From the IMG/VR virus record IMGVR_UViG_3300030061_001088, positions 11,963 to 41,661 of that record: 29,699 nt of DNA; one strand, 5' to 3'. The notes beneath the pieces are model-generated. The model was not told the origin of the DNA. It made no database searches and saw only the letters and a program-made list of their open reading frames with translations. This DNA comes from a virus. Shown here piece by piece: positions 4,829 through 29,653 of the stretch (positions within the stretch are counted from its first letter, which is position 1; every line of letters begins with the position of its first letter). The position numbers and the translations under genes are program-made.

Positions 4829-5968
4829 TCACTTTAGGTTACGAATGCTCCCTTGTGCACCAAAGAAAGTTGTCCATACTTCACCCATGGTTCGGTATAG
4901 TCCCTCTTGGCCTAGTCTGTTAATTGCGAATGGGTCACCAGTCTCGATTCCACTCTCGAAGTACTGTGTTGGTATTGCTGTGCTAAAGTGCAGGTAATCT
5001 GTATCTAGGTAGTAGATTTTTGATAGGTTACCATCGTCATCCATATCCTTTGTTGGTATGATTGGTACTCCGTTGTATGTTGCAACTATGAAACCTGCTT
5101 CCATACCGGGAACACCCTTTACACCGTTGTAGGTTGGTGTTACTCTCTTCTCTTCCATGAATCTCTGCTGTGACTGCAATAGTTGTTGTAGTCTCATCAA
5201 TGTGTCATATCCAGTTAGCATAACTTTTGGATTTCCACCACGTACCCATATCTTTTGGAATAGGTCATCGATTTGGTCTAGAGATAGAACTCTATCTGCT
5301 CCAGCAGTACCAAGGTTGGTTTCTGCATCTGACCATGAGTTAGCAGACCTGTCTATTGAATAGATGTCTAAATCTGCTGCTGCGGTCACCCAGTTTGTGT
5401 CTCCACCCATAGTTGAGTGGCTTGCAGTAACTCTGTCTAGTGACTCGAAGTTGTTTCCAACAGGTGAGTCTGTGTCTACAAGAAGCATCTTGTTGACCAT
5501 TTCTGCGTGGTGCTTACCCATTTCTTCTTTAAGAACTGAGCGAATGTCTCCCATTCCGTCATCCTTGTCTGCAAGGAAGATTGCTGTCTCAGACATATCG
5601 AATGTGTGTGCGATTGTCTTTGGCTTTGCAGCAATGTGCTGGAAAGTAGGTTTTACAGTCTCAGGTAGTGTTGCGTTTTCTGCTACTCCACCGTGTACAA
5701 CACCAGCATTTGGTCTGCCAGTGATAACACGCCATCCGCTTCTGTCCCATGGTTTCTTAGGTAGTATTGAGAAGGCGTTAAACTCTTGGTTCAATTGTGA
5801 CCATACTTTGCGACCATAGATTGCTTGGTATGTTCCGCCTGTTGTGGACAGCATAGGGCTGTCAGCCTTGAGTAATTCACTACCAGTGTATGAGTAACCC
5901 ATTGCGTTACCTGCACCGTAGTAGTATCTTTCCATATCTGTTATTGTTCGTACATAATCTCTTGCCAT
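4829..5968 (-). CDS. Major capsid protein, HK97 fold
   Basis: A 379-aa protein between the prohead protease and decoration-type genes, the standard place for an HK97-type major capsid protein. Its ATG follows a near-consensus TGGAGGAAT ribosome-binding site, consistent with high expression. The sequence shows an N-terminal arm (about 1-40), an E-loop-like region around the IYGRKVWSQLNQEF segment, and central A/P-domain features such as GGNPKVMLTGYDTLMRLQ and GVPIIPTKDM. It ends GEVWTTFFGAQGSIRNLK. Length is usual for a capsid subunit that does not carry its own long scaffold; the scaffold appears to be fused to the protease gene instead. Capsid identity is strong from context and general pattern. 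The particular family (magrovirus or other archaeal) cannot be fixed without a search. Confidence 0.85.
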   Translation of the reverse strand: MARDYVRTITDMERYYYGAGNAMGYSYTGSELLKADSPMLSTTGGTYQAIYGRKVWSQLNQEFNAFSILPKKPWDRSGWRVITGRPNAGVVHGGVAENATLPETVKPTFQHIAAKPKTIAHTFDMSETAIFLADKDDGMGDIRSVLKEEMGKHHAEMVNKMLLVDTDSPVGNNFESLDRVTASHSTMGGDTNWVTAAADLDIYSIDRSANSWSDAETNLGTAGADRVLSLDQIDDLFQKIWVRGGNPKVMLTGYDTLMRLQQLLQSQQRFMEEKRVTPTYNGVKGVPGMEAGFIVATYNGVPIIPTKDMDDDGNLSKIYYLDTDYLHFSTAIPTQYFESGIETGDPFAINRLGQEGLYRTMGEVWTTFFGAQGSIRNLK

Positions 5969-5999: not shown

Positions 6000-7361
6000 T
6001 CACTCCGGGGTGAAGGCTTTTGATGCTAGATGATGAACCTCATCCCAAGACATCTTAGCCATATCCTCCGTAGAAGGTACTACAACTGATGTAGTATCTA
6101 CTGATTTAGCGATTGTTTCTCCTGTTTCTGCTGGAGTACTGATTGATTCAATGCGCTCTGATAGTGCACTGATTGCTTTTGTTATTTCATCTAGAGGACC
6201 GCGAGCGTCATATGCTGCTGCCTCTGCTTTTGCGATTTCTGCTGCGCGCTCTGTTGCGAAGCGGGATGCAAATTGTGATTCTAGAGAGCCACGGAACTCT
6301 TGCTCCATTGCTGCTGCTTTGTATACTTCGTATGCAGATTCGATATCTGAATCTGATAGTGTTGCTGGATTAACGAAATCCGATTTCTTTACTGCTCCAG
6401 TGGTTTTGCCTAGAGCGTTAGTAGATGGACTACCGTTCTCTTGTGCTCGACCCTTTACTTGACCTGTTCTCTGTACTTCGTACGCAGCAAGTTCCTCAGG
6501 TGTAGAACCCAAGTTTGCCTTTTCTAGACCATCGAAGTGTGCACGTGCTTCAGCAGTGTCGACTCCAGCACTCTTTAGAGTGTCTTCCATCCAGTTAAGG
6601 TAATCAGAAGTGATTACATCAGAGTATTCTGATTTCTCTACTTCTGCATCTTCTTTCTTTTTGTCGTCTTTCATGTCTTCTTTCTTGTCATCTTTCTTGT
6701 CAGCGATGGCTTCCTTGAGCGCTGGAGGCATTTCGCCTTTCTCCATGTTGTCAAGTCGACCTTCTAAGCGACTTAGTACGTCACTCATTTGCTTCATCAT
6801 ATCATCATCATTTTCTGTTGTCATATTTTTCACTTCCGTGTCTTCTTTTAATATACTAAATGTCGCTTCGGGGTTTATGCCTTTTTCGCAAATTGTTATT
6901 TCATGAAGTTCCAGTTTACTTATTTCTTGGTAATCTCCTCGTTTTGCATCAGATTTTCTGACTCTTTTAAACGCTTGACCACCGATACTGAATCCTCTGA
7001 GAACGCCTTTTCTGATTTCTGCTGAAACCTCTTTTGCTTTCTCGATGTCGTTTCTGAGTTGTACTACTACAAACATCCCGACATCATCAACTTCGCTTTT
7101 CCACAACCTCCCTTCGCTATCTGTGTAATTCGGTACTACATCTCCAACTTGTATATTACTGTGAGCCAATTGAACGTTTCTGTATGACGGATTTTCCATG
7201 AACTTCCGAAATGCTTGTTTCAATGCCTCCTTTGTTATTACGTCGCCTTGTTTGTCTACAACTTCCACACTAGCGTAACCAGCGACAATGAGGTCATTAG
7301 CACCCTTAAGGATGGTAATTGGTTCATCGCCATATCTGAATTGCTGTTGACTACCGAGCAC
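6000..7361 (-). CDS. Prohead protease fused to a scaffold-like C-terminal region
   Basis: A 453-aa protein starting at GTG 7361. Residues about 1-175 match the HK97-type/assemblin-like prohead protease fold: VDKQGDVITKEAL, a catalytic His candidate in LAHSN (H67), a catalytic Ser candidate in GFSIGG (S125), and the closing phrase EITICEKGINPEA. The remaining 280 residues are charged and helical: a Lys/Asp low-complexity stretch (around 224-238), Ala/Glu-rich coils (EIAKAEAAAYDARG; ITKAISALSERIESIS), and a C-terminal tag-like peptide, MSWDEVHHLASKAF. Fusing protease and scaffold lets the protein guide shell assembly and then digest the scaffold. The gene lies directly before the capsid gene. 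The start is uncertain because the ribosome-binding site before GTG is weak. Confidence 0.85.
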   Translation of the reverse strand: MLGSQQQFRYGDEPITILKGANDLIVAGYASVEVVDKQGDVITKEALKQAFRKFMENPSYRNVQLAHSNIQVGDVVPNYTDSEGRLWKSEVDDVGMFVVVQLRNDIEKAKEVSAEIRKGVLRGFSIGGQAFKRVRKSDAKRGDYQEISKLELHEITICEKGINPEATFSILKEDTEVKNMTTENDDDMMKQMSDVLSRLEGRLDNMEKGEMPPALKEAIADKKDDKKEDMKDDKKKEDAEVEKSEYSDVITSDYLNWMEDTLKSAGVDTAEARAHFDGLEKANLGSTPEELAAYEVQRTGQVKGRAQENGSPSTNALGKTTGAVKKSDFVNPATLSDSDIESAYEVYKAAAMEQEFRGSLESQFASRFATERAAEIAKAEAAAYDARGPLDEITKAISALSERIESISTPAETGETIAKSVDTTSVVVPSTEDMAKMSWDEVHHLASKAFTPE

Positions 7362-7409: not shown

Positions 7410-10400
7410 CTAATCAAGGTTCTTTTTATCAAAAACGCTAGACTGCTCTGCACTTTCTTTCTTTTTCTGTTTTCTACCCGGATAATCTTCAGGTTTCTCC
7501 AAATCTTCAGTAGGGCGGTTTTTCATATCCCAATCAGGTAAAGATTGTTCTGAAGTCAATCTTGTCGGCCCTCTAGGGCTTTCTACACCACCACCAACAT
7601 CTATGCCTAATCCTCTTCCAGCAAGGTTACTGTGACCTTTTTCTATTTTATCAAGTATCTTTTCCATGATTAGTAACGCCTTGTACATTTCTTTTTGTTT
7701 TGGTTTTAACAAGATGTTCCTATCTGTCTTGGGTTTTAATATTCCCGCACTTTCTTCTTCTACCTTATCTTCATCCATTTCTGCGTGTATTTCAGATTCA
7801 CCTTTCAATAGGTCTTCTAAATGAGAACTCCAGTAAGGTTCTAGGCTTTTTGCTAATCTTAAAGAATAATCCGATTCCGTTAAACTACCTATGGCTGATA
7901 CAGGATTAACGGCTTTACCTTCTACAATTTCGTACTTAACTAAATCCTCAGGTAGATGAATGATAAAATGCCCATTGTTCATTTCAGTAGCAAACGTAAC
8001 ATGATAATCGATTTCACTCTTAGCCAAAATAACCCATTTAGGGTGTTTCTCTTCTCCCTTCATGTATGTAGACTTTGCATCACGAAGCATAATCCTATCA
8101 GATTCTTTACCTAAATCCTTAACAGCCGCTTCTAGACCCACCTCATCAGTAATTCTAACATCAGAAGGACTAGGTATGAATACAGGGTGATAACTTTCAA
8201 ATTGCCCTCTTAGTATCTTTATTCTTTCTCTAGTCGTTAGTTCAGTAACGTCATCGTCATCGTAGTGAAGTATATCGTTAACGTAAAACTCACCATCTTT
8301 CATCATACCATCTATAACGTAATCCTTCTTACAAACTAATTTTAACGAATCTTTAACATCATCGTCTGCTGGTATTTTTTCAGCCTTTTCATCAAACACA
8401 ACTATTCTATTGTTCTTCTTCACTACTTTGCATCTTTTACCGTCAACTAATGTTGAAACTACCCATTCTCCAGTAAACCCTCTTAATTGATTTAAATCTT
8501 CTAAATCGAATATACGATGCAATGGGTCGATTAAGGGTACTTCTTTGGGTAAATCTGCCTTACCAATATTGTAAGGATTATCAGCATACGATGTACCAGT
8601 AATAGCATTAAGTTGATTCCAAGCAGGTTGTGTTTGTAATATTCTAGGATTAGTAATATCTACATTACCTATGATGTTATCATACATCCCTTCACCAAAT
8701 ATATGATGCCATGCTGCTTGAGGCATACTAGGGTATGCAGAAGTTTGAGGGTTACTACCCACGACAGGTCTTCCATCTCTTTCAAACTCAAAACCAATAG
8801 TCGGCTCTGCTACATGCCCATGTTCTCTAGGCCAATTAGCATGAAGCAAAACCCCATCTTGAGATTTTAATGGTCTCAAGGGTGTAGTAGTAAAATCTAC
8901 TGTTGGTTTTTGCTGTAATTCAAAAGGTGTAAATTGATTATCTTCTGTTTTAGCAGCAGATTGCTCATCATAAGTTATTATCTGACTTGCTATATCTTTG
9001 TAAGTGGAATGCTGATTATTGATATTTTTTATCGGTTTGCCCTTGCTATTCAATTCTTTAGAATGTAATGGGACTTTTGATTCATAATGAGATAAACCAT
9101 AATGTTCCAATTCATCTTTATCTAAAACAGAACGCTTAGAACTCGGTCTAACTCTTCTTCTTAACTGACTTAAAGTTTGATAAGAGGGCATTGATTGAGC
9201 AACAGCATTAGGTTTTCTCATATTTTCATATAGTGTTCTGTTATCTCTCTTTTTAGGTATGGAGTTTCTATAATTTACTAACCTGCTATCCATATGTGCA
9301 TGTAAATCCGTAATACCATCTCTACTCAAAGCATCCATGTGTTTACTTCCTTGAGGCATAATTTCTTGACCCCATGTTGCGATTTGTCCTAATGATGCTG
9401 CTCTAACTGGACCATTTAGCGAAGATAAATAATCTCTAACATAATCTTGATGCGCTTCATCATTAGGTAGACCTAGAACCTCTAACGCCTTATCGACTTT
9501 CATAGTCGGATTTATCTCGTACATCGTTCTACCACTTTGGTGCATCATATCAAATAGACTTGCTACATTTTTATGAAAAGAGCCACCTTCCATCTCTTCA
9601 ATTGATTTCCTATCACCCTCACCTATGTGATAACCCATGGTTGTAATATTATGATTGGGGTCATGGATAAGACCCCTGCCAGCGTCTTCCCACAACCTTT
9701 GAGAATTATGCATGAACTTAATTGGGTCGCTTGGGTCAAAAGCACTTGGGTCATGTTCTAACGCCATTGGAAGTAAAACGGTCTTAGCATACTCTGCTTG
9801 TGCTTGTTTATCTGCTAATCTTTTATTGTAAAAATCTATACTTGGTTGTTTTGTGACACTACGTCCTAATCCTAAGTCTCTCATCTCATCAGGATATAGT
9901 AAATCGTTCAATTCTCTAACTCTATCTTCTGCTCTTTTAACTTCAAGATTTTTGAAATCTTGTGGATTCATGTTAGTTCCTTTTTCATCCATATATTGTT
10001 GGAGTTCTTCACCCTCTAAGTTTCTAATACGGTCTAATTCCTCTTCAAGAAATAGTAAATCATCACCCTCTAATCCAAGACCTTCAGTTTCTCTACGACC
10101 TGCATCTCCCATAAGTCTTAGGAAATCAGTGTGAGATACACCCATAGAACTTCTCAAATCAGGATTATTGTACAATTGCTCATAAGAAGTTACACCCCAA
10201 CTGGGATGAGCATCCCAAGGTGGATACCCATTATCAGTAAGAAGACGGTGGTGCATAGAACCTACATCCAACAAGGAAGTATCACCTCTTTCTGCTGAAC
10301 CTACACGTGTAAAAGGATTATCTGAATGAAGGGTTTGCATAGCCCCATCTCTGGAAACATTACGTTTTGTGTCGTATTTATCAGAATCAATATCAAAATT

Positions 10401-12683
10401 AGTTTCTAAGTTTGTACCACGTGTCATGAGATTAGGGAAACTAGTAGATTGAGTGTCACTTGAATTATTGTGATTATTTCTCAACACCCTACCTCTAGCG
10501 TTAGGACGAGATTTATCAGTATTAGCCATTATTTCAAGAGCACTTCCACTACCAACAACACCTGTGTCTCTTTGCACATTATGTAAATTACCAAACATTC
10601 CAGTATTACCACTGTTAGGAATAATACTATACTGAGTCTGCCCTCTACCCTTTTCATCAGTCTGTAAATAACCTAAAGGAGAAGTTTTACCACCATCGGT
10701 AGAAAGATGATTATGAAGAATATCTAGATAACTAGTATGAGTTTTTCCGATGCCCGGACTATGTGTATAAGCATCTTCTTCCATATGTGCCCAACCTTTT
10801 AGGTTTCCATCACTATCTTTAAAATAATGAGACTTCTCTTCAGGTGTTAGTTTTTCATCATCATGTTTAGGGCCGTTATTACCTAGCCTTGCAACAGACA
10901 ATGCTCTTCTAATTGGTTTTTCTTCTGTCGCTAATCCTTTTTGAAATTGAACATTATTCATAACTTGTTGCATAATTTCTTTATCTAGCAAGGGTTCATT
11001 ATAAGCATCAAATATTGAATGGTTATCAAGTTCGTTTAATTTTTCATCATAGCCAACTAGAGACTGTAATCCCTCTTCTGTTAACTTAACATCACTAGTT
11101 TTATGTATTTTACCAGTGATTATATCCTTCAAACTCTTACCCATTTTTCTTTCTCTCTTAATAGCAGCAACATCAGAATTGGAAAAAGAAAATAAATTAC
11201 TAATATCATCTAAATCAACATCACCTTCAAACATACTAACAATGTTCTTTCGTAATCTATCATGCGCTGAATCTTCTATCATACTAGTTTCACCAGTATC
11301 AGGGTCTGTATATTCATAAGGTTCTAAGTAAACAGACTTTAACGCTCTCCTTACAGCACCTTCTATACCACTGGTTATATTATCTTCTGAGGTTTCTAAG
11401 TGTTGATGTGTATTAGGACCAAAATGATGTGGCATTCTCGTCCAATGATGCAATTCAGCATTTGTCCTTCTTTCTTTGTTTAGTTTTAATCTAGACATTG
11501 GCATAATATGCCCATCAGATAATTTAATGTCTTGATGTTCAGGATTGTCTGTTCCATGTTCATGTATATGTTGTAAGATTTTAGTTCTGTCTTGAGGGGC
11601 AACAAACTCTAATCCGTAAGCCCAAGTTTCCCAACCTAATTTTTTATTATGCTTAACAGAGTTCTTGCTTCTCAAGTCTCTTTTAGCAGCAGCCAAATCT
11701 TCAAACTGTGGATTATTCAAAAGATGGTCTTGATATTCTTGTTCAGATATCTTTCTAGTTAGTTTACCTCTAGTGTTACCACCTAGTATCAAATCACCCA
11801 TACGTTGGTCAAAATGCTCTTTCTCTAAATCAATGCCATCTGCTTCTAGTTTTGCAAGTTTCTCATCGCCTTGTTCTTTCTTCCACCTTTCAAAATCTGC
11901 TAATCTTGTGGTGTGAATGTGTTTGTAATGACTTTGACCATGATTAGATTTAGAGCCAAGAAAAGCCTGTTTTCTAGGTAGTTCTTCTTGGTAGTCTTCT
12001 TGTTCATAAATAGGTGACTGTTCGTTATCATACATCAATAACCCCTCAGTGTTTTTAGCATGAATCGGATTTCCTTTAGAATCAAGTTTGTTTCTTTTTG
12101 CTCTTCTAGTTCCACCTCTAACACCTCTATACAGAGAATGGCCTTGTTTCAAATGATATGCTTCATGAGAGTCTTCCTTCGCCATCAATCGCTCTGCGAA
12201 AGAGGGACTATCATCATCTGAAAAATACATTTCACTAAGTTTTCTTTCCCATTCGGGTTTTCCTGTTACAGCGTTTTTTCTTCTAAGAGGATGGTTGTCT
12301 TCTGAAAAAGGCCAGTATCCGTAACTACTAGTAGTCTCAGGCCATTTACCATGTCTTTGATTCATAGTATGGTCACTTTTCACTTGACCTGACCATGGGT
12401 GGTCAACTGATTCTTGTTGAAGTAATCTAGATATATTGATGTTTTTTTCTTTTTGAGGTCTTGCCTTATTCAACATATACGCTGTATATGAAAAAGCCAT
12501 TTCATCGGCTTTAGTAATATCAAAAGTTATATTTTGATTTTCTAAGTTTTGCAGAGACTGTATGTAAAAACCAACTTCATCATCCGCATATACATTATCG
12601 TATATGGCTTTGATTAAGTCATCACGATGTCGGATGTAAACATCAACTGCATTTTCTTCCACAGATTCATCCCTCAGTGACAT
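7410..12683 (-). CDS. Giant 1757-aa protein with degenerate DNA-ligase-like domain
   Basis: The largest gene in the window, starting at ATG 12683 inside the end of the upstream gene. Most of its length is polar, His/Asn/Asp-rich sequence without a recognised fold. Near the C-terminus (residues about 1395-1555) the order of motifs matches ATP-dependent DNA ligase/nucleotidyltransferase domains: LVDGKR at 1412-1417 for motif I, IDGMM around 1458 for motif III, ELTTRERIKILR, then DRIMLRD at 1529-1535 for motif IV, STYMKG, and PKWVILAK at 1548-1555 for motif V. The residues usually catalytic are replaced (motif I Lys by Leu, motif III Glu by Met, motif V Lys by Ile), so enzymatic ligation is unlikely. 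Position between portal-associated genes and the protease suggests a virion-internal or injected protein. That role is inference. Confidence 0.7.
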   Translation of the reverse strand: MSLRDESVEENAVDVYIRHRDDLIKAIYDNVYADDEVGFYIQSLQNLENQNITFDITKADEMAFSYTAYMLNKARPQKEKNINISRLLQQESVDHPWSGQVKSDHTMNQRHGKWPETTSSYGYWPFSEDNHPLRRKNAVTGKPEWERKLSEMYFSDDDSPSFAERLMAKEDSHEAYHLKQGHSLYRGVRGGTRRAKRNKLDSKGNPIHAKNTEGLLMYDNEQSPIYEQEDYQEELPRKQAFLGSKSNHGQSHYKHIHTTRLADFERWKKEQGDEKLAKLEADGIDLEKEHFDQRMGDLILGGNTRGKLTRKISEQEYQDHLLNNPQFEDLAAAKRDLRSKNSVKHNKKLGWETWAYGLEFVAPQDRTKILQHIHEHGTDNPEHQDIKLSDGHIMPMSRLKLNKERRTNAELHHWTRMPHHFGPNTHQHLETSEDNITSGIEGAVRRALKSVYLEPYEYTDPDTGETSMIEDSAHDRLRKNIVSMFEGDVDLDDISNLFSFSNSDVAAIKRERKMGKSLKDIITGKIHKTSDVKLTEEGLQSLVGYDEKLNELDNHSIFDAYNEPLLDKEIMQQVMNNVQFQKGLATEEKPIRRALSVARLGNNGPKHDDEKLTPEEKSHYFKDSDGNLKGWAHMEEDAYTHSPGIGKTHTSYLDILHNHLSTDGGKTSPLGYLQTDEKGRGQTQYSIIPNSGNTGMFGNLHNVQRDTGVVGSGSALEIMANTDKSRPNARGRVLRNNHNNSSDTQSTSFPNLMTRGTNLETNFDIDSDKYDTKRNVSRDGAMQTLHSDNPFTRVGSAERGDTSLLDVGSMHHRLLTDNGYPPWDAHPSWGVTSYEQLYNNPDLRSSMGVSHTDFLRLMGDAGRRETEGLGLEGDDLLFLEEELDRIRNLEGEELQQYMDEKGTNMNPQDFKNLEVKRAEDRVRELNDLLYPDEMRDLGLGRSVTKQPSIDFYNKRLADKQAQAEYAKTVLLPMALEHDPSAFDPSDPIKFMHNSQRLWEDAGRGLIHDPNHNITTMGYHIGEGDRKSIEEMEGGSFHKNVASLFDMMHQSGRTMYEINPTMKVDKALEVLGLPNDEAHQDYVRDYLSSLNGPVRAASLGQIATWGQEIMPQGSKHMDALSRDGITDLHAHMDSRLVNYRNSIPKKRDNRTLYENMRKPNAVAQSMPSYQTLSQLRRRVRPSSKRSVLDKDELEHYGLSHYESKVPLHSKELNSKGKPIKNINNQHSTYKDIASQIITYDEQSAAKTEDNQFTPFELQQKPTVDFTTTPLRPLKSQDGVLLHANWPREHGHVAEPTIGFEFERDGRPVVGSNPQTSAYPSMPQAAWHHIFGEGMYDNIIGNVDITNPRILQTQPAWNQLNAITGTSYADNPYNIGKADLPKEVPLIDPLHRIFDLEDLNQLRGFTGEWVVSTLVDGKRCKVVKKNNRIVVFDEKAEKIPADDDVKDSLKLVCKKDYVIDGMMKDGEFYVNDILHYDDDDVTELTTRERIKILRGQFESYHPVFIPSPSDVRITDEVGLEAAVKDLGKESDRIMLRDAKSTYMKGEEKHPKWVILAKSEIDYHVTFATEMNNGHFIIHLPEDLVKYEIVEGKAVNPVSAIGSLTESDYSLRLAKSLEPYWSSHLEDLLKGESEIHAEMDEDKVEEESAGILKPKTDRNILLKPKQKEMYKALLIMEKILDKIEKGHSNLAGRGLGIDVGGGVESPRGPTRLTSEQSLPDWDMKNRPTEDLEKPEDYPGRKQKKKESAEQSSVFDKKNLD
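8004..8501 (-). other. Degenerate nucleotidyltransferase (ligase-like) domain within the 1757-aa gene
   Basis: This stretch encodes residues about 1395-1560 of the giant protein. Motif order and spacing follow ATP-dependent DNA ligases: W-V-V-S-T-L-V-D-G-K-R, then I-D-G-M-M, a strand resembling the FYVFDIL region (FYVNDILHYD), the R-E-R helix, and I-M-L-R...S-T-Y-x-K-G...P-K-W. The nucleophilic Lys of K-x-D-G-x-R is Leu (L1412). The match was made by eye. It predicts a fold, not activity. Confidence 0.6.
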
Positions 12684-13419: not shown

Positions 13420-13848
13420 TTAATTAGACCAGCGACCAAAAGTTCCTGATGTTTTCTTCATTCGTGGATTGTTTCTAGATGAAATAATAGTGCCGGGTAA
13501 CTGTCTGTCTCTTTGAGATGTATCGAAATTAGAGCCTGATTCGTTCCATTTCAACACAGGAACATTGTTTACCCAACCGTTGTCCGGTGAAACTACCTCA
13601 GTAGACTCTGCTTTCTTAATAGCATGATGTAAGTCTTCTTCTAACGTGCTTGCGTACTTCATTATTTCATTTAAGTGATTTTTAGCATCGTCTGCATTAC
13701 CGTCTTCGATAGCCTTAGCAAAGGCTTCGTTATGGGCGGTAAGTTTCCTAGCCATTGGGTGCATTTTTAGTAGGTCCATGGTAATCGCCGGTAGTACGCT
13801 ATACGCTTCTCTATTTGAATTATGCCCCTTTAATACGCCTTGAATCAA
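13420..13848 (-). CDS. Small helical protein downstream of the portal
   Basis: A 142-aa frame that begins at TTG 13848 and overlaps the portal stop by about 29 bases. An internal ATG at 13779 (MDLLKMHPMARKL) would remove the overlap; neither start has a clear ribosome-binding site, so the N-terminus is uncertain. Residues about 24-75 are helical (AFAKAIEDGNADDAKNHLNE; STLEEDLHHAIKKAE). The C-terminal half is polar, with many Asn, Ser and Arg residues. It may be a portal-associated or head-interior factor on position alone. No family recognised. Confidence 0.5.
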   Translation of the reverse strand: MIQGVLKGHNSNREAYSVLPAITMDLLKMHPMARKLTAHNEAFAKAIEDGNADDAKNHLNEIMKYASTLEEDLHHAIKKAESTEVVSPDNGWVNNVPVLKWNESGSNFDTSQRDRQLPGTIISSRNNPRMKKTSGTFGRWSN

Positions 13849-15538
13849 TTAATGCACGACTATTATCTTGTGCTAGCGAGTTTTTTGGTCCACGTTGTTG
13901 TACGCTGGTTACGGGAGAACCTATACCCGGACTTCCTCTGTTTTGAGGACTAGCCGGTCCTCTTGGTGTACGTATCCCTTGACCCTCACCACCGGGTTGC
14001 GATGGTGGTAAAATACCGGGTGGTAAAGCAGCCATTTGCTGTGCCATTGGACCACCAGTGCCGGGTGGCATTCCTTGAGGTGGTTGCATACCCGGAGGCA
14101 TTGGCGGTGCACCGTCTTGTTCTTGATTCAACTTACGATATGTAAATCTGATATCTCTTTCACCCTCTTCCATCAATTCAGGTTTGTACCCAAGCATCAT
14201 CATTCTCTGAGCGAGGTTAACTTCCATCTCATCTCTACGTAGACGTGTAATTTCATCTTCCTCTTCGTTTGGATAAAGGGTCAATTTCCAATCTGTTACT
14301 TCCATCTTTTCTAATAATCTTGGAAACAATACCTGAGTATACACCTTTTGACCAAACTCAACTGCTCGATTAGTAACTAGAATCTGCATACCTTCATTGT
14401 TAAGCCCACCACTCTTACCACTATCAATCATAAAGATACTACTCACACCATAGAACGCCGCTATCCTATTTCTTAGTTCATCTCTGACAGCAATATACTG
14501 CATTTCTTCTAGTGTATCCATGAACTTAACCCAATTCACACCCCCTCTTCCAGTGGAACTTTCTATTCCGACTTTAGGTATGTAATGAGGGTCACGTTCC
14601 ATCTTCTCGTCGACAGATTTCCAAAAGGACTTCATAGATTCTAAGTTATCAGTGGTAACTGATATGATACCTTTTGGACTTCTTCTCTTCTGATAAGCAG
14701 TGTACATGTAGTTGTCCATCGCTGTAAGAGTCATCGCTTGTCTCCACATTGTGTTTACCGGGCTTCTACCGTATAGTTTAGATGGGTTATATTTACTCAG
14801 GTGGATAACTTCATCTTCAAGATAATATTGAGTCTTACCACTTCCAGCCATATTAGCATAGTGGGCTTCTTGCATGTTATTGCCACAAACTTCGCATTTG
14901 TCGTCTTGACCGGGATAAGCAATTTGGTCTCTATGCAATGGACATACCTTGTATCTACCGCCACGTACACCACGCTTATCAGAAATAATTCTCATAAAGA
15001 TAGGGTCACCCCTAATCATTTCTTTTACTCTAAAGAACTTAATATCAGATGTCTCAGGTTCTACATAGTATTCTTTTATCAAAATCATAAAAGCATCATC
15101 TACTACTTCTAAGTCTCTTTCTATTTCTTGCAGCACGTGCATGAAATCTTGTTCCATAGAGTTCTGTTGCTCTAACAACCATTTCGGATAAAGTAATTGT
15201 TCTACATCAGGAGTTCTCACTTCACCATCGCATAATGTACATTGTTGGACTTCATGTTTGAACTCTTCACCACATTCAACACACTTGTGTTGGAACTTCT
15301 TTTCCCAGTAGTACCCTCTTCTAAATATCTCTTGACTTAACTTAGATATTACTGTTCTAAGAATTAAGTTTTCATGAGAAACAGCATACAACGCTGGTAT
15401 TGTAATTCCTTGTGCTAGTACGGGTTCTTGTATACCAGTAGTATACAGAGGCATTTGTGGTTCAGGTGTAGTTCGAGTTCTGAAGGGATTTGCTAGCCCT
15501 GATAGAAACCGAGCAATTCTTCCTTGTTCTTCTGCCAT
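13820..15538 (-). CDS. Portal protein with two zinc-knuckle insertions
   Basis: A 572-aa protein located one gene after the large terminase. Portal features include ENLILRTVISKLSQEIFRRG near the N-terminus, VVDDAFMILIKEY, the long-helix region DELRNRIAAFYGVSSIFM, then NNEGMQILVTNRAVEFGQ and a C-terminal helix. These match phage portals that form the dodecameric DNA channel at the capsid vertex. Two cysteine knuckles sit inside the core: C86-x2-C89-x10-C100-x2-C103 and C199-x2-H202-x12-C215-x2-C218. The C-terminal 110 residues are Pro/Gly/Met/Gln-rich (MPPGMQPPQGMPPG), probably a flexible tail inside the head. The ATG at 15538 follows GAGGCGAT and the TAA of the upstream gene by one base. Confidence 0.85.
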   Translation of the reverse strand: MAEEQGRIARFLSGLANPFRTRTTPEPQMPLYTTGIQEPVLAQGITIPALYAVSHENLILRTVISKLSQEIFRRGYYWEKKFQHKCVECGEEFKHEVQQCTLCDGEVRTPDVEQLLYPKWLLEQQNSMEQDFMHVLQEIERDLEVVDDAFMILIKEYYVEPETSDIKFFRVKEMIRGDPIFMRIISDKRGVRGGRYKVCPLHRDQIAYPGQDDKCEVCGNNMQEAHYANMAGSGKTQYYLEDEVIHLSKYNPSKLYGRSPVNTMWRQAMTLTAMDNYMYTAYQKRRSPKGIISVTTDNLESMKSFWKSVDEKMERDPHYIPKVGIESSTGRGGVNWVKFMDTLEEMQYIAVRDELRNRIAAFYGVSSIFMIDSGKSGGLNNEGMQILVTNRAVEFGQKVYTQVLFPRLLEKMEVTDWKLTLYPNEEEDEITRLRRDEMEVNLAQRMMMLGYKPELMEEGERDIRFTYRKLNQEQDGAPPMPPGMQPPQGMPPGTGGPMAQQMAALPPGILPPSQPGGEGQGIRTPRGPASPQNRGSPGIGSPVTSVQQRGPKNSLAQDNSRALIDSRRIKGA

Positions 15539-15539
15539 A

Positions 15540-16682
15540 TTATATCGCCTCTGCCCACTTAGTTACGTCGTCGGCTTGTACGCCCCACTCAGAGAGGAGT
15601 GCAGTAGACTTTTTGGTGTCATCGCTCCAATTGTAGTACCTAACCACTTTCTTTAATTCTTCTTTCTTCATAGAATCTTTTTCTTCTATAAACGCTAAAA
15701 CCGCTTTTGCTTGTGTTTTCTTCATTTCTAAAAAAGGTAACAAACCTTTCAAAAGTTTGCTAATATCTGATTTAGAGTAAAACTGTAATCTATGTTGGCT
15801 TCTTTGTGTGTCACTATACACTTTTTGGTCTAGTTGTAATATACCGCAATCTAATGTTTTTTGTAATTGTTCACAATGTATCTTACCTCTCGTACCAGTA
15901 GCGATAAATCCAGCACGTGGCTCGCCTCTTTTTGTAATTGTAATATAACCATCAGCATCTAAAAACCCAGCAGCATAAGCCCAAGGGTCTTTTATGATTA
16001 ATCCAGTCTTATCCATTTTAACAAAAGTACCTCTTTTACCACCTGCTATGATATCAACTTCTTCTCCATACATAGAAAGAAGTTTTGCTAATTTCATAGA
16101 TGTCATGCTTTTGTGTAAGACTTTTCTTTCTTTTAGATTTTCAAATAATGTACGACCTGACATAGCACCTCTAGATTTCAATATCTCTTCGCTTTTGTGT
16201 AGTGCTTGTTGTTCTTTATCTGTGAGTTTTTCTATTTGGTTTAGTGTAGATTTCCACATTTTACGTGCATCTCTTTTGCTATCCATAGCAGAAACCCATG
16301 CTTTTCTTTCTTGGTCTCCCCAAACATCTTCGTATTCATCTAAGGCTTTCAATGCCTCATCTGCTTGCTCCCACTGCATACACGCTCTTGTCAAACCTAT
16401 TCTTCTTGAATCTCCAAATCTTCTTAACGATTTCATAGTTTTATCTGACATGCCGAGTTCTCTTATTGTATCAGAATGTTTTTCTGTCCAAGGATGCATC
16501 TTCAAAGTAGCATCCATTTCCATACTTTTCATTGTTCTTATGTCTTGTATTGCTTTGTCAATAAAATCTTTTTCTTCTTTATTGTGTCTTCTTGCTTTCC
16601 TCAGTCGATAAACTAAATCAGATGCAGAGCAGCCTATATTAGATTCAAACCACCCATCTCCGTTCTGTGGAAACATGCTCAT
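15540..16682 (-). CDS. LAGLIDADG-domain fusion protein between TerL and portal
   Basis: A 380-aa protein. I start it at ATG 16682, eight bases after GGAGATA, rather than at the upstream TTG (16697). The N-terminal 230 residues are helical and charged, with a possible winged-helix segment (SGRTLFENLKERKVL through KRGTFVKMDK). Residues about 235-246 hold a clear LAGLIDADG signature, AYAAGFLDADGY, followed by the expected strand pair and a C-terminal helical region. A single LAGLIDADG motif normally works as a homodimeric homing endonuclease or as a DNA-binding domain. Lying between the terminase and portal genes, it could be a free-standing homing endonuclease, or a domesticated DNA-recognition subunit of the packaging machine. 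I cannot decide between these from the sequence. Confidence 0.7.
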   Translation of the reverse strand: MSMFPQNGDGWFESNIGCSASDLVYRLRKARRHNKEEKDFIDKAIQDIRTMKSMEMDATLKMHPWTEKHSDTIRELGMSDKTMKSLRRFGDSRRIGLTRACMQWEQADEALKALDEYEDVWGDQERKAWVSAMDSKRDARKMWKSTLNQIEKLTDKEQQALHKSEEILKSRGAMSGRTLFENLKERKVLHKSMTSMKLAKLLSMYGEEVDIIAGGKRGTFVKMDKTGLIIKDPWAYAAGFLDADGYITITKRGEPRAGFIATGTRGKIHCEQLQKTLDCGILQLDQKVYSDTQRSQHRLQFYSKSDISKLLKGLLPFLEMKKTQAKAVLAFIEEKDSMKKEELKKVVRYYNWSDDTKKSTALLSEWGVQADDVTKWAEAI

Positions 16683-16750
16683 TTTTTTTATCTCCAAAAG
16701 GTAGTGTTCATATTTTTTTCATCTATTGTTGTATCATTCATATTAATTCC

Positions 16751-18229
16751 TCAAGGTATCATCAGCGAGTCGTTTTTGCTCTCGCCCCTAAACCAGTTAT
16801 CAAAGCCCGGCATGTAATCATCTAAGAGCATAACGCTTCCTTTGAACTCCTTCGAGGCCCAATTAGCAAGTGCTAAACTCATAGCCAAGTCATCGTGTAC
16901 CCCCACACTCTCCAACTTTCCGTTTTTCTGCATACCGAACCTATTCAATTCCTGTTCCAATTTGTGAGTGTAAGCCCTGCTCCTTTCATCACCATATGGA
17001 AGTTTAATGTGTCCCTGCTCAAAAGCGAGAAGAAGGCTCATGAACAAAGATTCTTTTCTCGTACGTGTAGTCATAAACACCCTAATTGGCATGTCTGCTC
17101 TTAATTCTCTCATTTCTTGTTCTAGCATTCTTTGAAAATTGTTACCTTCAAGTTCTATTAACTCAGGTTGAAACTTATTATTCAAGATAACCATCATGCG
17201 TTTCTGCGCCATTGAAGACATTCCTCTTTCATGAACTACGTGTACTATCTCCTTAACATCCTCATCGGGTTTCATTCTCATAACAGTCATCGCTGTAAAA
17301 TCAGCGTTCTTATCAGATGCTATCGCTGGGTCATGACCTACGAAATGTTGTCCAAACACACCACTCGCTTCTCCTTCTTCATTGTAAAATGTCTCTGCTT
17401 TGTCAAGAAGAACAAGGTTCGGGTCTCTACATTTTTCAAGTAATGGACCCGGAAACATACTGGCTACGTCATGTATTGGTTCACACAGGTACTCACGTGT
17501 AAATTGTATAGCGGGCATAGATAGCCTTCTTTTTTCTAGAGAGTCAATGTCCCACCTTTCAGGCCATAGCGCAACCCCTTCTTTGTTTATCGCCGGATAG
17601 GTTTCTACTCTGAAAGTCTCCTTTTGCTCCAACTCAGCGTACAAATCGTTGTAACTAAACGGCGTACCAACCATCATGAGTTTACTGCTGTGGTGAAGCA
17701 CTGGTAGTAGAACACCGTAAAACCAATCTGCTGTCTTAGCAAGTTCACTAGCAGTAGTACCCCATAGAATATCGTCACACACAACAACATCAGGGTGGAA
17801 ACCACGGGTTGCTCCACCAACTGATTTTGCCATCATACGGCTACCGTTAGAAAACTCAAAGTAGGATTTAGCCCATGGTTTGCCTTGTGGTTTTAGATGA
17901 GATAATACATCATTACCTTCTATGTTGTTACGTACAAATCTCATATGCTCAAGTGTTTGTTCTAGAGAATGAGAGAATATCATCACGTGTGTATTAGGTT
18001 TGAATGCGGCTAACCACAATGCGTATGTCATAAAAAATACAGATTTACCATGGTCACGCGAAGCCTTAACGCAATAGTACTGTGACTCTTCTAATCCGTT
18101 TTTCCAAGACTCATGATGATGATTGTACATGAAACCTAGAACATCAACGAAAAAATATTTGAAGGACTTCTCACACATCTTCCTATCCATATTAAGGATA
18201 AACTCTTCCATCTCTTCCTTGTTAGACAT
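16751..18229 (-). CDS. Terminase large subunit (DNA-packaging ATPase/nuclease)
   Basis: I choose ATG 18229, eight bases after a GGGTG site and overlapping the previous stop, over a GTG nine bases further upstream (18238); this gives 492 aa. In the numbering from the GTG, the ATPase half shows a Walker A variant ASRDHGKS (59-66), a Walker B VVVCDD (151-156) and a coupling motif GTP (191-193). The C-terminal RNase H-like nuclease half begins around GHDPAIASDKNADF (D303) and ends with HDDLAMSLALANW, the usual last acidic pair. It powers DNA translocation through the portal and cuts the genome. Length is normal for a TerL, and all key residues are visible. Confidence 0.92.
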   Translation of the reverse strand: MSNKEEMEEFILNMDRKMCEKSFKYFFVDVLGFMYNHHHESWKNGLEESQYYCVKASRDHGKSVFFMTYALWLAAFKPNTHVMIFSHSLEQTLEHMRFVRNNIEGNDVLSHLKPQGKPWAKSYFEFSNGSRMMAKSVGGATRGFHPDVVVCDDILWGTTASELAKTADWFYGVLLPVLHHSSKLMMVGTPFSYNDLYAELEQKETFRVETYPAINKEGVALWPERWDIDSLEKRRLSMPAIQFTREYLCEPIHDVASMFPGPLLEKCRDPNLVLLDKAETFYNEEGEASGVFGQHFVGHDPAIASDKNADFTAMTVMRMKPDEDVKEIVHVVHERGMSSMAQKRMMVILNNKFQPELIELEGNNFQRMLEQEMRELRADMPIRVFMTTRTRKESLFMSLLLAFEQGHIKLPYGDERSRAYTHKLEQELNRFGMQKNGKLESVGVHDDLAMSLALANWASKEFKGSVMLLDDYMPGFDNWFRGESKNDSLMIP

Positions 18230-18938
18230 TAGTTGCACCCTTCTCTCTCATTTCTTTTAGTTTAGCAGGGTCGATAACTGCAACTGGAGGGTCTGTGTAT
18301 TGTGTTAACGGGATTTGTTGTGTACCTGTACCAGTAGGAGCATATGGTTCATCCGCCGGTAAGTAACTAACAATTGAATTATTGGCATCTGCTCCGGGTG
18401 CTGGCATATGAGATACTGGAGTACCGAATTGTGGTGAATGAGTAGGTGGTAATATCATACTAGGTCTTATACCAATTAAGTTTTGAAACTCTTGATAAGG
18501 CATATTCATTGCTTTATCATAATCACGCTGTTCATTTTCTGCTTGTGCTTCATCATAAGCATCAGCGCTTTCTCTGTTGTCTCTTCTCACACCAACCTTT
18601 GCACCCTGTCTTGCCGCCGCACGTTCAAGACCCTGTGAACCATAATATCCACTCATAGCACCACTACCCATCGATGTTAAAGCACCGGGGTTGCCGCTAG
18701 CAGTGGTATTGTAGAAAGCATTCAAAGCACCTAACGCACCTAATCCATATCTAGCCTTACTACCAATGTCACCAAATCTTCTTGCTAATCTATTCTGAGC
18801 GCTTTGAGATGGACCGAACTTTGTGTAGTCTATATTTTCAGGACTTGGGTTTATCATAAGTCCCAAGCCCTGATTACTCAAAGTTGGTTGTATAGGCATA
18901 CCTGTATCTTGTTTTGCTAAAACGTAAACCTTACCCAT
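18222..18938 (-). CDS. Gly/Ala/Pro-rich protein of unknown function before TerL
   Basis: A 238-aa protein whose ATG directly follows the TAA of the upstream gene (TAAATG). After about 50 residues comes a small-residue-rich segment (KARYGLGALGALNAFYNTTASGNPG...), then a charged helix (NRESADAYDEAQAENEQRDYD), then a Pro/Gly/Thr-rich tail. The Gly/Ala-rich segment resembles parts of phage internal or membrane-penetrating virion proteins, but no transmembrane helix is certain. Its place between two giant proteins and TerL suggests virion content. No family recognised. Confidence 0.5.
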   Translation of the reverse strand: MGKVYVLAKQDTGMPIQPTLSNQGLGLMINPSPENIDYTKFGPSQSAQNRLARRFGDIGSKARYGLGALGALNAFYNTTASGNPGALTSMGSGAMSGYYGSQGLERAAARQGAKVGVRRDNRESADAYDEAQAENEQRDYDKAMNMPYQEFQNLIGIRPSMILPPTHSPQFGTPVSHMPAPGADANNSIVSYLPADEPYAPTGTGTQQIPLTQYTDPPVAVIDPAKLKEMREKGATNV

Positions 18939-21410
18939 TTAGATACCCCCGAATGAAACCTTGACGACCTTAACCACCTTATCAGGATATCCGTATGCCT
19001 TAGTAATTCTCTCCCAGTCACCTTTACTGTGTAGGATAGTGCGTACATCTGCTGTTGTGATGTCCATTTTTGTAGCCATACTACGAATATCATCTAAAGA
19101 TTCATCGTTCATTTTCTTAACAGGTACGTGCTTAATTACATCATCATCTTTCTTAGCATCTTCTATCTGTAATATTTCAATTGCTTTGACTAATCTATCT
19201 TTAGCGTCTTCAGGATTGTCACTACTCTTAGCATATTGTGTTATGAACCTTTGATATGGGTCACCGACATTTTGTTGGAACTGTTGTATTCTTTCAGGAG
19301 TTAATGGTGCTCTTTGTGGCGCTGCACCTGATTCTTGCATTAACTGTCTAACTTGCTCTTGTGGAGCAGATGCGAATTGTAGTCGTTGTCTCTGTTGTGG
19401 TGTTAGATTTAGTGCTTCGGGTCTTGATATTGGTCTACCCCGTTCATAAGTCATTTGTGGTGGATAAGTCGATACGGGTTCAGGTGGTGGGCTTGTAGCA
19501 GCATGTTGTGCTACTAACGCAGGTGGTGCATTAGGTGGAGGTGGTGTAACTGCCACTCTTTGTGTCGGGGTTGTAGAGACAGAAGGTGGAGGAGGTGGAG
19601 GAGGTGGAGGAGGTGGAGGAGGTGGAGGAGGTGGACCCCCCGCCGTTGCAGCCGATGGGGGTCCAGTAGGAATTGTAGTAGTTACTGGTGGTACAGGGCT
19701 GACATATCTATTTTGCATATATGCTGGAGCGTCCATTATAGAGTCATCATCGCCAAACATCGCACCCCCTACAATAGTGTTTTGAATTAATGGTGCTAGT
19801 TTGTCAATTTCTTCTTGTGATGGTAACATTCTTTTTTCTTGATGTCCTCTTGAAAGTGATTGATGATGTGCTATTTCTTCAATTATCGCTCTTATGATAG
19901 GTGCATTAGCCATAGATGCATCATCAGTTTTTAATCCAAGACCTGCTGCTTCTATTTCTTCACGTGTCAAAGCATCGTTTCTAAAATTAGAATGTCCATC
20001 GCCTGAATTACCTGCTGCTAGGGCTTTAGCCCATATTTTTCTAGCATTGGTATGTGTTCCCAATGTTCTTGTAGTACCCTTTCCCGACCTATATGAGTCA
20101 GGTGTGTTAGTGCTATGTGACATGTATTTTTCAAGTCCAGTATCTGCATCGCCGTATCTTTCAGAATAATGATTATGCAACTTAGCAAGAGTACCCTGTG
20201 TCTTTCCAAATAAGGCTTGGAAAGCCGGGTACTCTGAAAGTTGTTCTGTTAACATCGCTCTACCCTGTGGGCTTGATAACAAGTGGGAGACCTTGTGTTG
20301 CTTTCCATTAAAATCTGTAAATGTACTATTGAAGAAATTAGGTGGCACTGACCCTGCTATTAAAGTTCCAAAGGCTTTGCTATCCATACCAAGTGCTTGT
20401 TCTATGTGAAAATTAGCAGAGCGAATAACTTCTGCTCTATTCTTCCTTCTACCACTTTGTGGTAAGAAATACGTGTCAGGTAAATGGTGTGTCACATCCC
20501 AAGATGTTATGTCTTTGAACTGGGCTTGACTAATACCCAAATCACTAAACCTTTCCATATGATGTGGTGGTAGTTTGTCAGTACCCCTTAGATGTCCCAT
20601 TTCTAAATGATGTGCTCCGGGTGTTAAACTTCCAGTAACAGGGTTAATCATATAATTTAGTTTAGCAGGTCTGATATATGGGAAACTTTTCTTACCATTA
20701 CCAAAATCAAGTATATTGTATTCTTTTCCATTTCTACCGACAGCAGTGTTATTGAATCCAATCTCATTAAGCAAACTTGCTAACTGTGTGTGAAATGGTA
20801 CAGTATAGGATTCAAGAAACTTACCATACTTATGTGCATCTTTAGTAGGATGGTCAATGTTGTGGTGTCCGTTTGGTGTTGTTGTAATTAATTGACCATC
20901 TGCACTGTAATTCCCTCTGTCAGTATGTTTACCTCTTTGGAAATCTGCCATGACTATTTTCCTCCAAGCCATAGAATCTGTATTAGGAAGATGGTTATTC
21001 CTATCAGGTGATTCTTCATTATGCATATCTATGGCTTTTTGAACTAAATCTTTAGCATTTACATTAATCCCTTGTTTTTTCAATTCTTCACCGACAGACC
21101 TGATTACACCATCTATACCATGCAGATGATGACCACCCCTTTCGTCTTGGAAAAACATTTCACCATGCTCACCTCTTTGTGGTTTAGTGTGGTCTACCAT
21201 TGATTTACCGACACCGGGTATACCAGTTTCTTGTTCATGAGCAGCACCAGTATGTGCAAAAGCAGGTGCATCCGGCTGATTAGGGTCAGGGTGAAATGAT
21301 TCCTCAGGTGGATATCTCTGCACTAAAAACGCACCATCATGAAAGTGATAATTGCCATCTCCCTTTAGTATTGTAATAGATTTCAATATTAAAGGGCGGG
21401 ATGTTATCAT
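18939..21410 (-). CDS. 823-aa His-rich protein with a 17-proline tract
   Basis: Translated through an ATGA overlap with the 848-aa gene upstream. The first 540 residues are rich in His, Gly, Asn and Asp (GERGGHH-, HHLEMGHLRG- and HHMERF-type clusters) with no domain I recognise. Residues about 570-650 are Pro-rich and include 17 consecutive prolines, encoded by a 9-bp tandem repeat. Further Pro-rich segments follow (TPPPPNAPPAL; SPPPEPVSTYPP). The C-terminal 150 residues are helical and charged (EDAKDRLVKAIEILQIEDAKKDDD). A Pro linker between two folded parts is the simplest reading. Genomic position suggests a virion-internal or injected protein. Function unknown. Confidence 0.55.
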   Translation of the reverse strand: MITSRPLILKSITILKGDGNYHFHDGAFLVQRYPPEESFHPDPNQPDAPAFAHTGAAHEQETGIPGVGKSMVDHTKPQRGEHGEMFFQDERGGHHLHGIDGVIRSVGEELKKQGINVNAKDLVQKAIDMHNEESPDRNNHLPNTDSMAWRKIVMADFQRGKHTDRGNYSADGQLITTTPNGHHNIDHPTKDAHKYGKFLESYTVPFHTQLASLLNEIGFNNTAVGRNGKEYNILDFGNGKKSFPYIRPAKLNYMINPVTGSLTPGAHHLEMGHLRGTDKLPPHHMERFSDLGISQAQFKDITSWDVTHHLPDTYFLPQSGRRKNRAEVIRSANFHIEQALGMDSKAFGTLIAGSVPPNFFNSTFTDFNGKQHKVSHLLSSPQGRAMLTEQLSEYPAFQALFGKTQGTLAKLHNHYSERYGDADTGLEKYMSHSTNTPDSYRSGKGTTRTLGTHTNARKIWAKALAAGNSGDGHSNFRNDALTREEIEAAGLGLKTDDASMANAPIIRAIIEEIAHHQSLSRGHQEKRMLPSQEEIDKLAPLIQNTIVGGAMFGDDDSIMDAPAYMQNRYVSPVPPVTTTIPTGPPSAATAGGPPPPPPPPPPPPPPPPPSVSTTPTQRVAVTPPPPNAPPALVAQHAATSPPPEPVSTYPPQMTYERGRPISRPEALNLTPQQRQRLQFASAPQEQVRQLMQESGAAPQRAPLTPERIQQFQQNVGDPYQRFITQYAKSSDNPEDAKDRLVKAIEILQIEDAKKDDDVIKHVPVKKMNDESLDDIRSMATKMDITTADVRTILHSKGDWERITKAYGYPDKVVKVVKVSFGGI
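19584..19635 (-). repeat. 9-bp tandem repeat coding for poly-proline
   Basis: On the plus strand the unit GGTGGAGGA is repeated about 5.7 times without a mismatch. Read on the coding strand it gives CCT/CCA codons for 17 prolines in a row. The plus strand is G-rich with regularly spaced GG pairs, so it may form a G-quadruplex. The coding RNA carries repeated CACCUCCUCC, which resembles the anti-Shine-Dalgarno end of 16S rRNA. The perfect repetition suggests recent slippage expansion. Confidence 0.9.
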
Positions 21411-29233: not shown

Positions 29234-29653
29234 TCACATTGGTACAAGATACTCTCTTGGAATTGGATTGCTGAATCTAACCTCTTCTCTAACACGTCTG
29301 TTTTGGGGGGTTTCAGAGACACCTTCTCTTATCCCATACACTTTACTTGATTGGTTTCTATCTAGACCTCTCGCATGAGCGTAACTTTGGGCATCCTCTA
29401 AATCACCTGTTGCATAAACCCCCTTTGGGAACTGAGAAAGCAAAGAGGGGTTCAACATTGCCGATAATGTGTTGTGATAATCAGGTGTTTGGGGAGATAA
29501 GCCTACACTATTGATTATTGAAGAGGGTCTTGCTGTTGTGCCGTGATACCACATCACATCGCCGTGTGGAGAAGGGAAATCGGGATGAAACTCGCCCAAT
29601 GTGCTCTGACGGGTCTGTTTTAGCAAAAACCACGCTTGGTCGAAGGGGTTCAT
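29234..29653 (-). CDS. ADP-ribosyltransferase-like protein
   Basis: A 139-aa protein starting at ATG 29653, which overlaps the preceding stop as ATGA. The N-terminal tag MNPFDQAW-x-LLK is followed by DFPSPHGDVMWYHGTT (H37), a middle GVYATGDLEDAQSYA (Y80) and a late EEVRFSNPIP (E123/E124). This order resembles the H-Y-E pattern of small ADP-ribosyltransferase-fold proteins, including phage-encoded toxins and DNA/RNA modifiers. The core is short, so a minimal or degenerate enzyme is possible. Its target is unknown. It may be carried in the virion or act early on the host. Confidence 0.65.
   Translation of the reverse strand: MNPFDQAWFLLKQTRQSTLGEFHPDFPSPHGDVMWYHGTTARPSSIINSVGLSPQTPDYHNTLSAMLNPSLLSQFPKGVYATGDLEDAQSYAHARGLDRNQSSKVYGIREGVSETPQNRRVREEVRFSNPIPREYLVPM

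Follow-up and report, generated by a model that had tools for sequence, protein, structure and literature searches.

Locus and gene neighbours

The DNA analysed here (the window) is a 29,699-nt stretch of IMG/VR virus record IMGVR_UViG_3300030061_001088 (positions 11,963-41,661), and all coordinates below are those of the window. On its minus strand, among genes for the virus head, a 1757-aa open reading frame carries a stretch with the motifs of an ATP-dependent DNA ligase but not the residues with which such an enzyme works. This raises the question of whether the stretch is a ligase domain at all and, if it is, what has kept it in a head operon. The features are as follows.

4829-5968, minus strand: major capsid protein gene (SU10_MCP, 1.5e-11; PHROG major head protein, 2.6e-58)
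6000-7361, minus strand: prohead protease gene (Peptidase_S78, 1.1e-9; synteny)
7410-12683, minus strand: giant protein of the head operon, containing the ligase-like domain (open reading frame and translation, 1757 aa)
7413-8003, minus strand: C-terminal region (residues 1561-1757), conserved across the dead clade and standing where the lost OB domain would be
8004-8531, minus strand: catalytically dead ligase-type nucleotidyltransferase (NTase) domain (residues 1385-1560; Pfam DNA_ligase_A_M, AlphaFold2 model, structure matches)
8019-8099, minus strand: motif IV to V, DRIMLRDAKSTYMKGEEKHPKWVILAK, with the motif IV Glu replaced by Asp and the motif V Lys pair gone (Ile1552, Ala1554)
8208-8285, minus strand: motif IIIa with the RERIKILR helix after it (YVNDILHY...RERIKILR)
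8304-8315, minus strand: motif III, IDGM, with Met1460 replacing Glu
8433-8474, minus strand: motif I, TGEWVVSTLVDGKR, with Leu1412 (8448-8450) at the catalytic Lys position
8574-12683, minus strand: N-terminal 1370 residues of the giant protein, fast-evolving, with residues 1-720 folded and without recognised relatives
13820-15538, minus strand: portal protein gene, upstream of the giant-protein gene (Phage_portal, 1.2e-11; PHROG portal, 2.1e-62)
16751-18238: large terminase gene, a head-gene neighbour

The portal, protease, capsid protein and large terminase genes nearby bear out an earlier reading of the sequence alone (the sequence-only reading), which had placed the giant protein among head genes. 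Residues 1-720 of this protein gave a confident model (pLDDT 78) with no structure match at E <= 0.001 in PDB or BFVD.

Between the large terminase and portal genes, a 385-aa protein (15540-16697, minus strand) has a LAGLIDADG-like stretch, GFLDADGYITI. Its homologues adjoin the portal gene in dead and active relatives alike (51% identity in L120, 35-44% in L130 and L132), and it is perhaps a homing endonuclease co-opted by the packaging module. An 823-aa open reading frame (18939-21410, minus strand) contains an unbroken run of ~17 prolines and had no notable Pfam, PHROG or NCBIfam match, and a 139-aa open reading frame (29234-29653, minus strand), with no significant family match, has a WYHGTT segment that recalls ADP-ribosyltransferase-like proteins.

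Identity of the domain

Bases 8004-8501 (minus strand), corresponding to about residues 1395-1560 of the giant protein, had been read as a degenerate ligase domain that keeps the motif order and the fold, with the catalytic residues of motifs I, III and V replaced by Leu, Met and Ile. Every named motif was found in order on the minus strand, namely TGEWVVSTLVDGKR (I), IDGM (III), YVNDILHY...RERIKILR (IIIa and helix), IMLRD (IV), STYMKGEEKHPKW, and WVILAK (V), and the three substitutions are as described (Leu1412, Met1460, and Ile1552). Further changes are Thr at the motif I Glu position, Asn1469 for the motif IIIa Phe, Asp1529 for the motif IV Glu, and Ala1554 for the second motif V Lys.

Pfam DNA_ligase_A_M matched residues 1411-1550 at E = 1.6e-5, slightly below the curated cut-off when the whole protein was searched and above it in the whole-record search, which covered 41.7 kb and turned up no other ligase. 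The same model matched 13/13 long relatives independently at the same position. A profile of related active ligases scored 78.7 bits against the window domain, compared with 9.4 bits for the best of 2000 shuffles, and the window family and the active head ligases were matched by profile-profile comparison at E = 2.9e-21 over 168 columns. With sequence alone, the window family profile had no significant match to solved ligases (E = 0.075), and the active head ligase matched the solved Thermococcus sibiricus ligase at 1.2e-14. When the replicative ligases of these viruses were used as the probe, the sequence profile did not score above shuffles, and the profile-profile comparison gave E = 4e-5.

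The AlphaFold2 model of the domain, built from the alignment, is of middling quality (mean pLDDT 71), with the KGEEKHPKW loop among its weak parts. Nearly all of the best 50 Foldseek matches were DNA or RNA ligases (best E = 6e-7), and VIA-align gave Z = 11.9 to T4 DNA ligase (3.7 A, 158 residues), Z = 11.5 to human LIG1, and Z = 9.7-9.9 for monkeypox rows among the structure matches. Profile match and fold together establish membership of the ligase family, and both the fold and the significant profile score agree with what the sequence-only reading had expected of a domain that lost catalysis. Residues 1385-1560 are a ligase-family NTase domain devoid of catalytic residues. Set beside ATP-dependent DNA ligases (PF01068; T4 ligase 6dt1, Thermococcus sibiricus ligase 4eq5, and human LIG1), the domain agrees with them in NTase fold (Z = 10-12 over ~160 residues) and motif order, but it lacks every mark of an active ligase that was looked for (the motif I Lys, the motif III and IV Glu, the motif V Lys pair, and the OB domain), as well as ~25 residues between motifs III and IIIa.

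Conservation and selection

An IMG/VR scan recovered 46 loci with relatives, and full-length relatives of the giant protein have 1700-2150 aa; neither an annotated phage collection nor the genomes of bacteria and archaea yielded any. When 32 sequences were aligned, 63 columns were invariant in the C-terminal domain, including nearly all of RGFTGEW and of RDAKSxYMKGEEKHPKW, the most conserved stretch, and very few in the N-terminal 1350 residues.

The residue comparison used 68 active and 38 dead domains, all distinct. Five catalytic positions, namely the Lys of motif I, the Glu of motifs III and IV, and the Lys pair of motif V, were intact in 68/68 active domains, a complete retention that is partly selected because some of the patterns used to find the active set contain the motif I or V Lys. 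They were intact in 0/38 dead domains, and for the motif I Lys this count is unbiased by the patterns of the dead-family scan (YMKGEEK and RGFTGEW), which exclude that Lys. In its place the dead domains carry H, Y, Q, M, L, W, or F. All 38 keep the Gly and Arg of motif I, the Asp of motifs III and IIIa, the Arg in the helix after motif IIIa, the Ser, the Tyr, the Gly, Pro-Lys-Trp, and the last Lys, and the motif IIIa Phe is kept in 5/38. The mean net charge of the dead domain is -4.8, below that of active ligases. Two residues past motif I, Lys1419 (8427-8429, minus strand) occupies a position that is Lys in 36/38 dead domains, Gln in 68/68 active domains, and invariant in the 32-sequence alignment.

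Pairwise dN/dS was 0.011-0.079 for the NTase domain versus 0.12-0.38 for the N-terminal part. In all pairs that allowed the comparison, it was also lower in the NTase domain than in the C-terminal region. Within the giant protein, conservation is highest in the dead NTase domain, which is under strong purifying selection; selection keeps the fold, not the chemistry. A chance match to ligases is ruled out by the shuffles, the dN/dS values, and the conservation.

Sister ligases and evolutionary history

A profile scan with the dead domain reached two further groups of loci, L120-L125 and L127-L132. The latter encode a protein of about 840-850 aa in which the ligase active site is complete (QEKYDGMR, ILDAEL, AEGVVIKD, and KWIKWKK; Pfam 1.8e-31). 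A second scan returned 344 stretches of this active kind, of which 80 were kept, and QEK[YF]DG was conserved in 82/82 second-scan sequences with a readable motif I. The sequence-only reading had left open whether any relative keeps the active Lys: within the dead family none of the 38 distinct domains has it or restores the active site, whereas sister viruses carry it intact in the same slot. One locus labelled as dead within the active capsid clade (L156) was rejected as a dead ligase because its contig begins after motif I.

In all groups, and in almost all loci that extend far enough, the ligase-bearing gene lies downstream of the portal gene and directly upstream of the prohead protease gene, which is followed by the capsid protein gene. 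Identities between the window and the active viruses are ~43-49% for the portal, ~38-43% for the capsid protein, and mostly ~36-40% for the protease. The sister-clade head-module ligase (L127-L132 and L147-L226), apparently undescribed so far, shares with the window domain the portal-to-protease slot, the domain start (MYRIF/LHRIF...LRGFTGEWVV), and the motif order, and differs from the window protein in its intact active site, its OB domain, its length of ~840 aa, and its unrelated flanks. Profile-profile comparison detected no homology between the N-terminal 1370 residues of the giant protein and the ~900-aa open reading frame upstream of the active ligases, and none was found between its C-terminal region and the C-terminus of those ligases. 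Synteny, the profile match, and the trees described below indicate that the window domain is orthologous to the active head ligase.

A second ligase of ~510 aa is encoded elsewhere in 7/7 large genomes that have the active head ligase, and another recognised ligase was found in 1/9 large dead-clade genomes. The latter (L050, in the 102-kb record of L007) has 379 aa and is not of the same type as the active clade's ~510-aa replicative ligases. No NAD-dependent ligase was found in the large relatives, and the RNA_ligase model matched none of the nine large dead-clade genomes, its only matches being to the DNA ligases of the seven active-clade genomes. The dead clade is mostly without any recognised ligase, as far as contigs that may be incomplete can tell.

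The L120-L125 group is dead at motif I (CWPKGQR) yet keeps the OB domain, which lies between the NTase domain and the C-terminal conserved region, matches the OB domain of active ligases at 4.9e-12, and is absent in the window's branch. In the NTase-domain tree all dead sequences fall on one side of a branch with support of 100/100, although long branches make its inner branching uncertain. The capsid protein, as an independent marker, yields a tree that is likewise divided into dead and active, with the OB-retaining dead branch basal in the dead clade. From the intact ligase in the same slot, the trees, and this OB-retaining dead intermediate, we infer an active ancestor and stepwise loss. 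The common ancestor of the two clades would have had an active head-module ligase; the branch leading to the dead clade would have lost the catalytic residues, in a single event, and the window's branch would later have lost the OB domain, an order drawn from parsimony, with the NTase core persisting within a protein of 1700-2150 aa.

The portal and capsid proteins of the window are nearest to those of the archaeal tailed viruses HVTV-1 and HCTV-1 (Druskaviridae). A family B polymerase was found in 16/16 large relatives and was matched in two pieces in 5/7 active-clade genomes; the polymerase of the reference magrovirus YSH_150918 is likewise split (PolB-NTD/CTD) (PMC10768690). These polymerase and portal/capsid affinities appear to point to Magrovirales or near kin, and the dead-clade viruses are marine archaeal tailed viruses that probably infect Poseidoniales.

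Possible function

The former active head-module ligase has probably become a non-catalytic docking module of the giant protein, acting in head assembly or within an internal head protein. The NTase core would work without catalysis as a rigid docking surface, and the faces formed by the invariant RGFTGEW and RDAKSxYMKGEEKHPKW segments would most likely hold a protein partner and less likely DNA. What points to a virion role for the giant protein is the position of its gene. The docking reading draws on an analogy with vaccinia A20, where a ligase domain without catalytic activity is built into a viral machine, the polymerase complex, as a structural part (PMC11142717). The closest analogue of the window domain is this inactive domain of poxvirus A20, a processivity factor called A22 in monkeypox virus, both being inactive ligase domains that a virus has kept as a part; A20 belongs to the DNA polymerase complex and keeps its OB domain, whereas the window protein belongs to a head operon and has none. 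No evidence was found for common descent of the two dead domains.

Alternatively, the domain might still bind DNA, recognising a nick or the end of the genome but leaving it unsealed, and could in this way hold or protect the packaged end near the portal; its descent from a DNA-binding enzyme, its head-operon position, and the motif I Arg, STYxxG segment, and Pro-Lys-Trp kept in 38/38 dead domains speak for this. The invariant KGEEKHPKW-type loop sits near the DNA and nucleotide side in active ligases, so a ligand-binding role may have been kept. However, the window's branch lost the OB domain, with the help of which ligases close around DNA, and the mean charge, lower than in active ligases, lends DNA binding by the window domain no support, so that we regard this reading as doubtful. 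Likewise, it seems unlikely that one clade's head-operon ligase became a capsid pseudo-ligase, that is, a protein inside the head that senses or clamps the ends of packaged DNA but does not join them. The missing Lys/Glu/Lys set argues against ordinary nucleotide binding, which the sequence-only reading had also entertained.

In HVTV-1, a related halovirus and archaeal tailed virus, the portal-to-protease interval holds gp115 (L048 4539-8480), which like the window protein is very large (1313 aa) and carries enzyme domains, but of zeta-toxin and ADP-ribosyltransferase type; no ligase domain was found in the HVTV-1 genome. Archaeal tailed viruses may use this interval as a slot for enzymes, and the giant protein, together with the active ligase of the sister viruses, could be packaged in the head, ejected, and act on host factors with the ligase fold as an effector module. 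This is improbable, as besides the dead ligase the giant protein shows no likeness to a known effector, and a literature search found no virion proteomics for it or for the sister ligase. Continued catalysis with Lys1419 as a relocated nucleophile would fit the Lys/Gln division at that position, but the motif III and IV Glu and the motif V Lys pair, which are needed for metal and phosphate chemistry, are also gone, and we give this reading very little credence. That the domain is a decaying, functionless relic is scarcely credible: the loss of all catalytic residues, and of the OB domain in the window's branch, would suit it, but this domain has the lowest dN/dS and the densest invariant columns in the protein and is kept in every long relative examined, and the strength of purifying selection contradicts decay. 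The docking reading accommodates a fold held under such selection.

The new points are that sister viruses have an intact ligase in the same slot, that the loss probably went in steps, and that selection on the dead domain is strong. A second ligase among the head genes, intact in one sister clade and dead but conserved in the other, amounts to a natural experiment in which the fold is needed and the chemistry is not, and with the dead/active pair one can test directly whether a capsid carries a DNA ligase or is acted on by one. Beside poxvirus A20, this is a second viral lineage that retains a dead ligase domain as a part, and 'DNA ligase' annotations made from profile or fold matches in these viruses may be pseudoenzymes.
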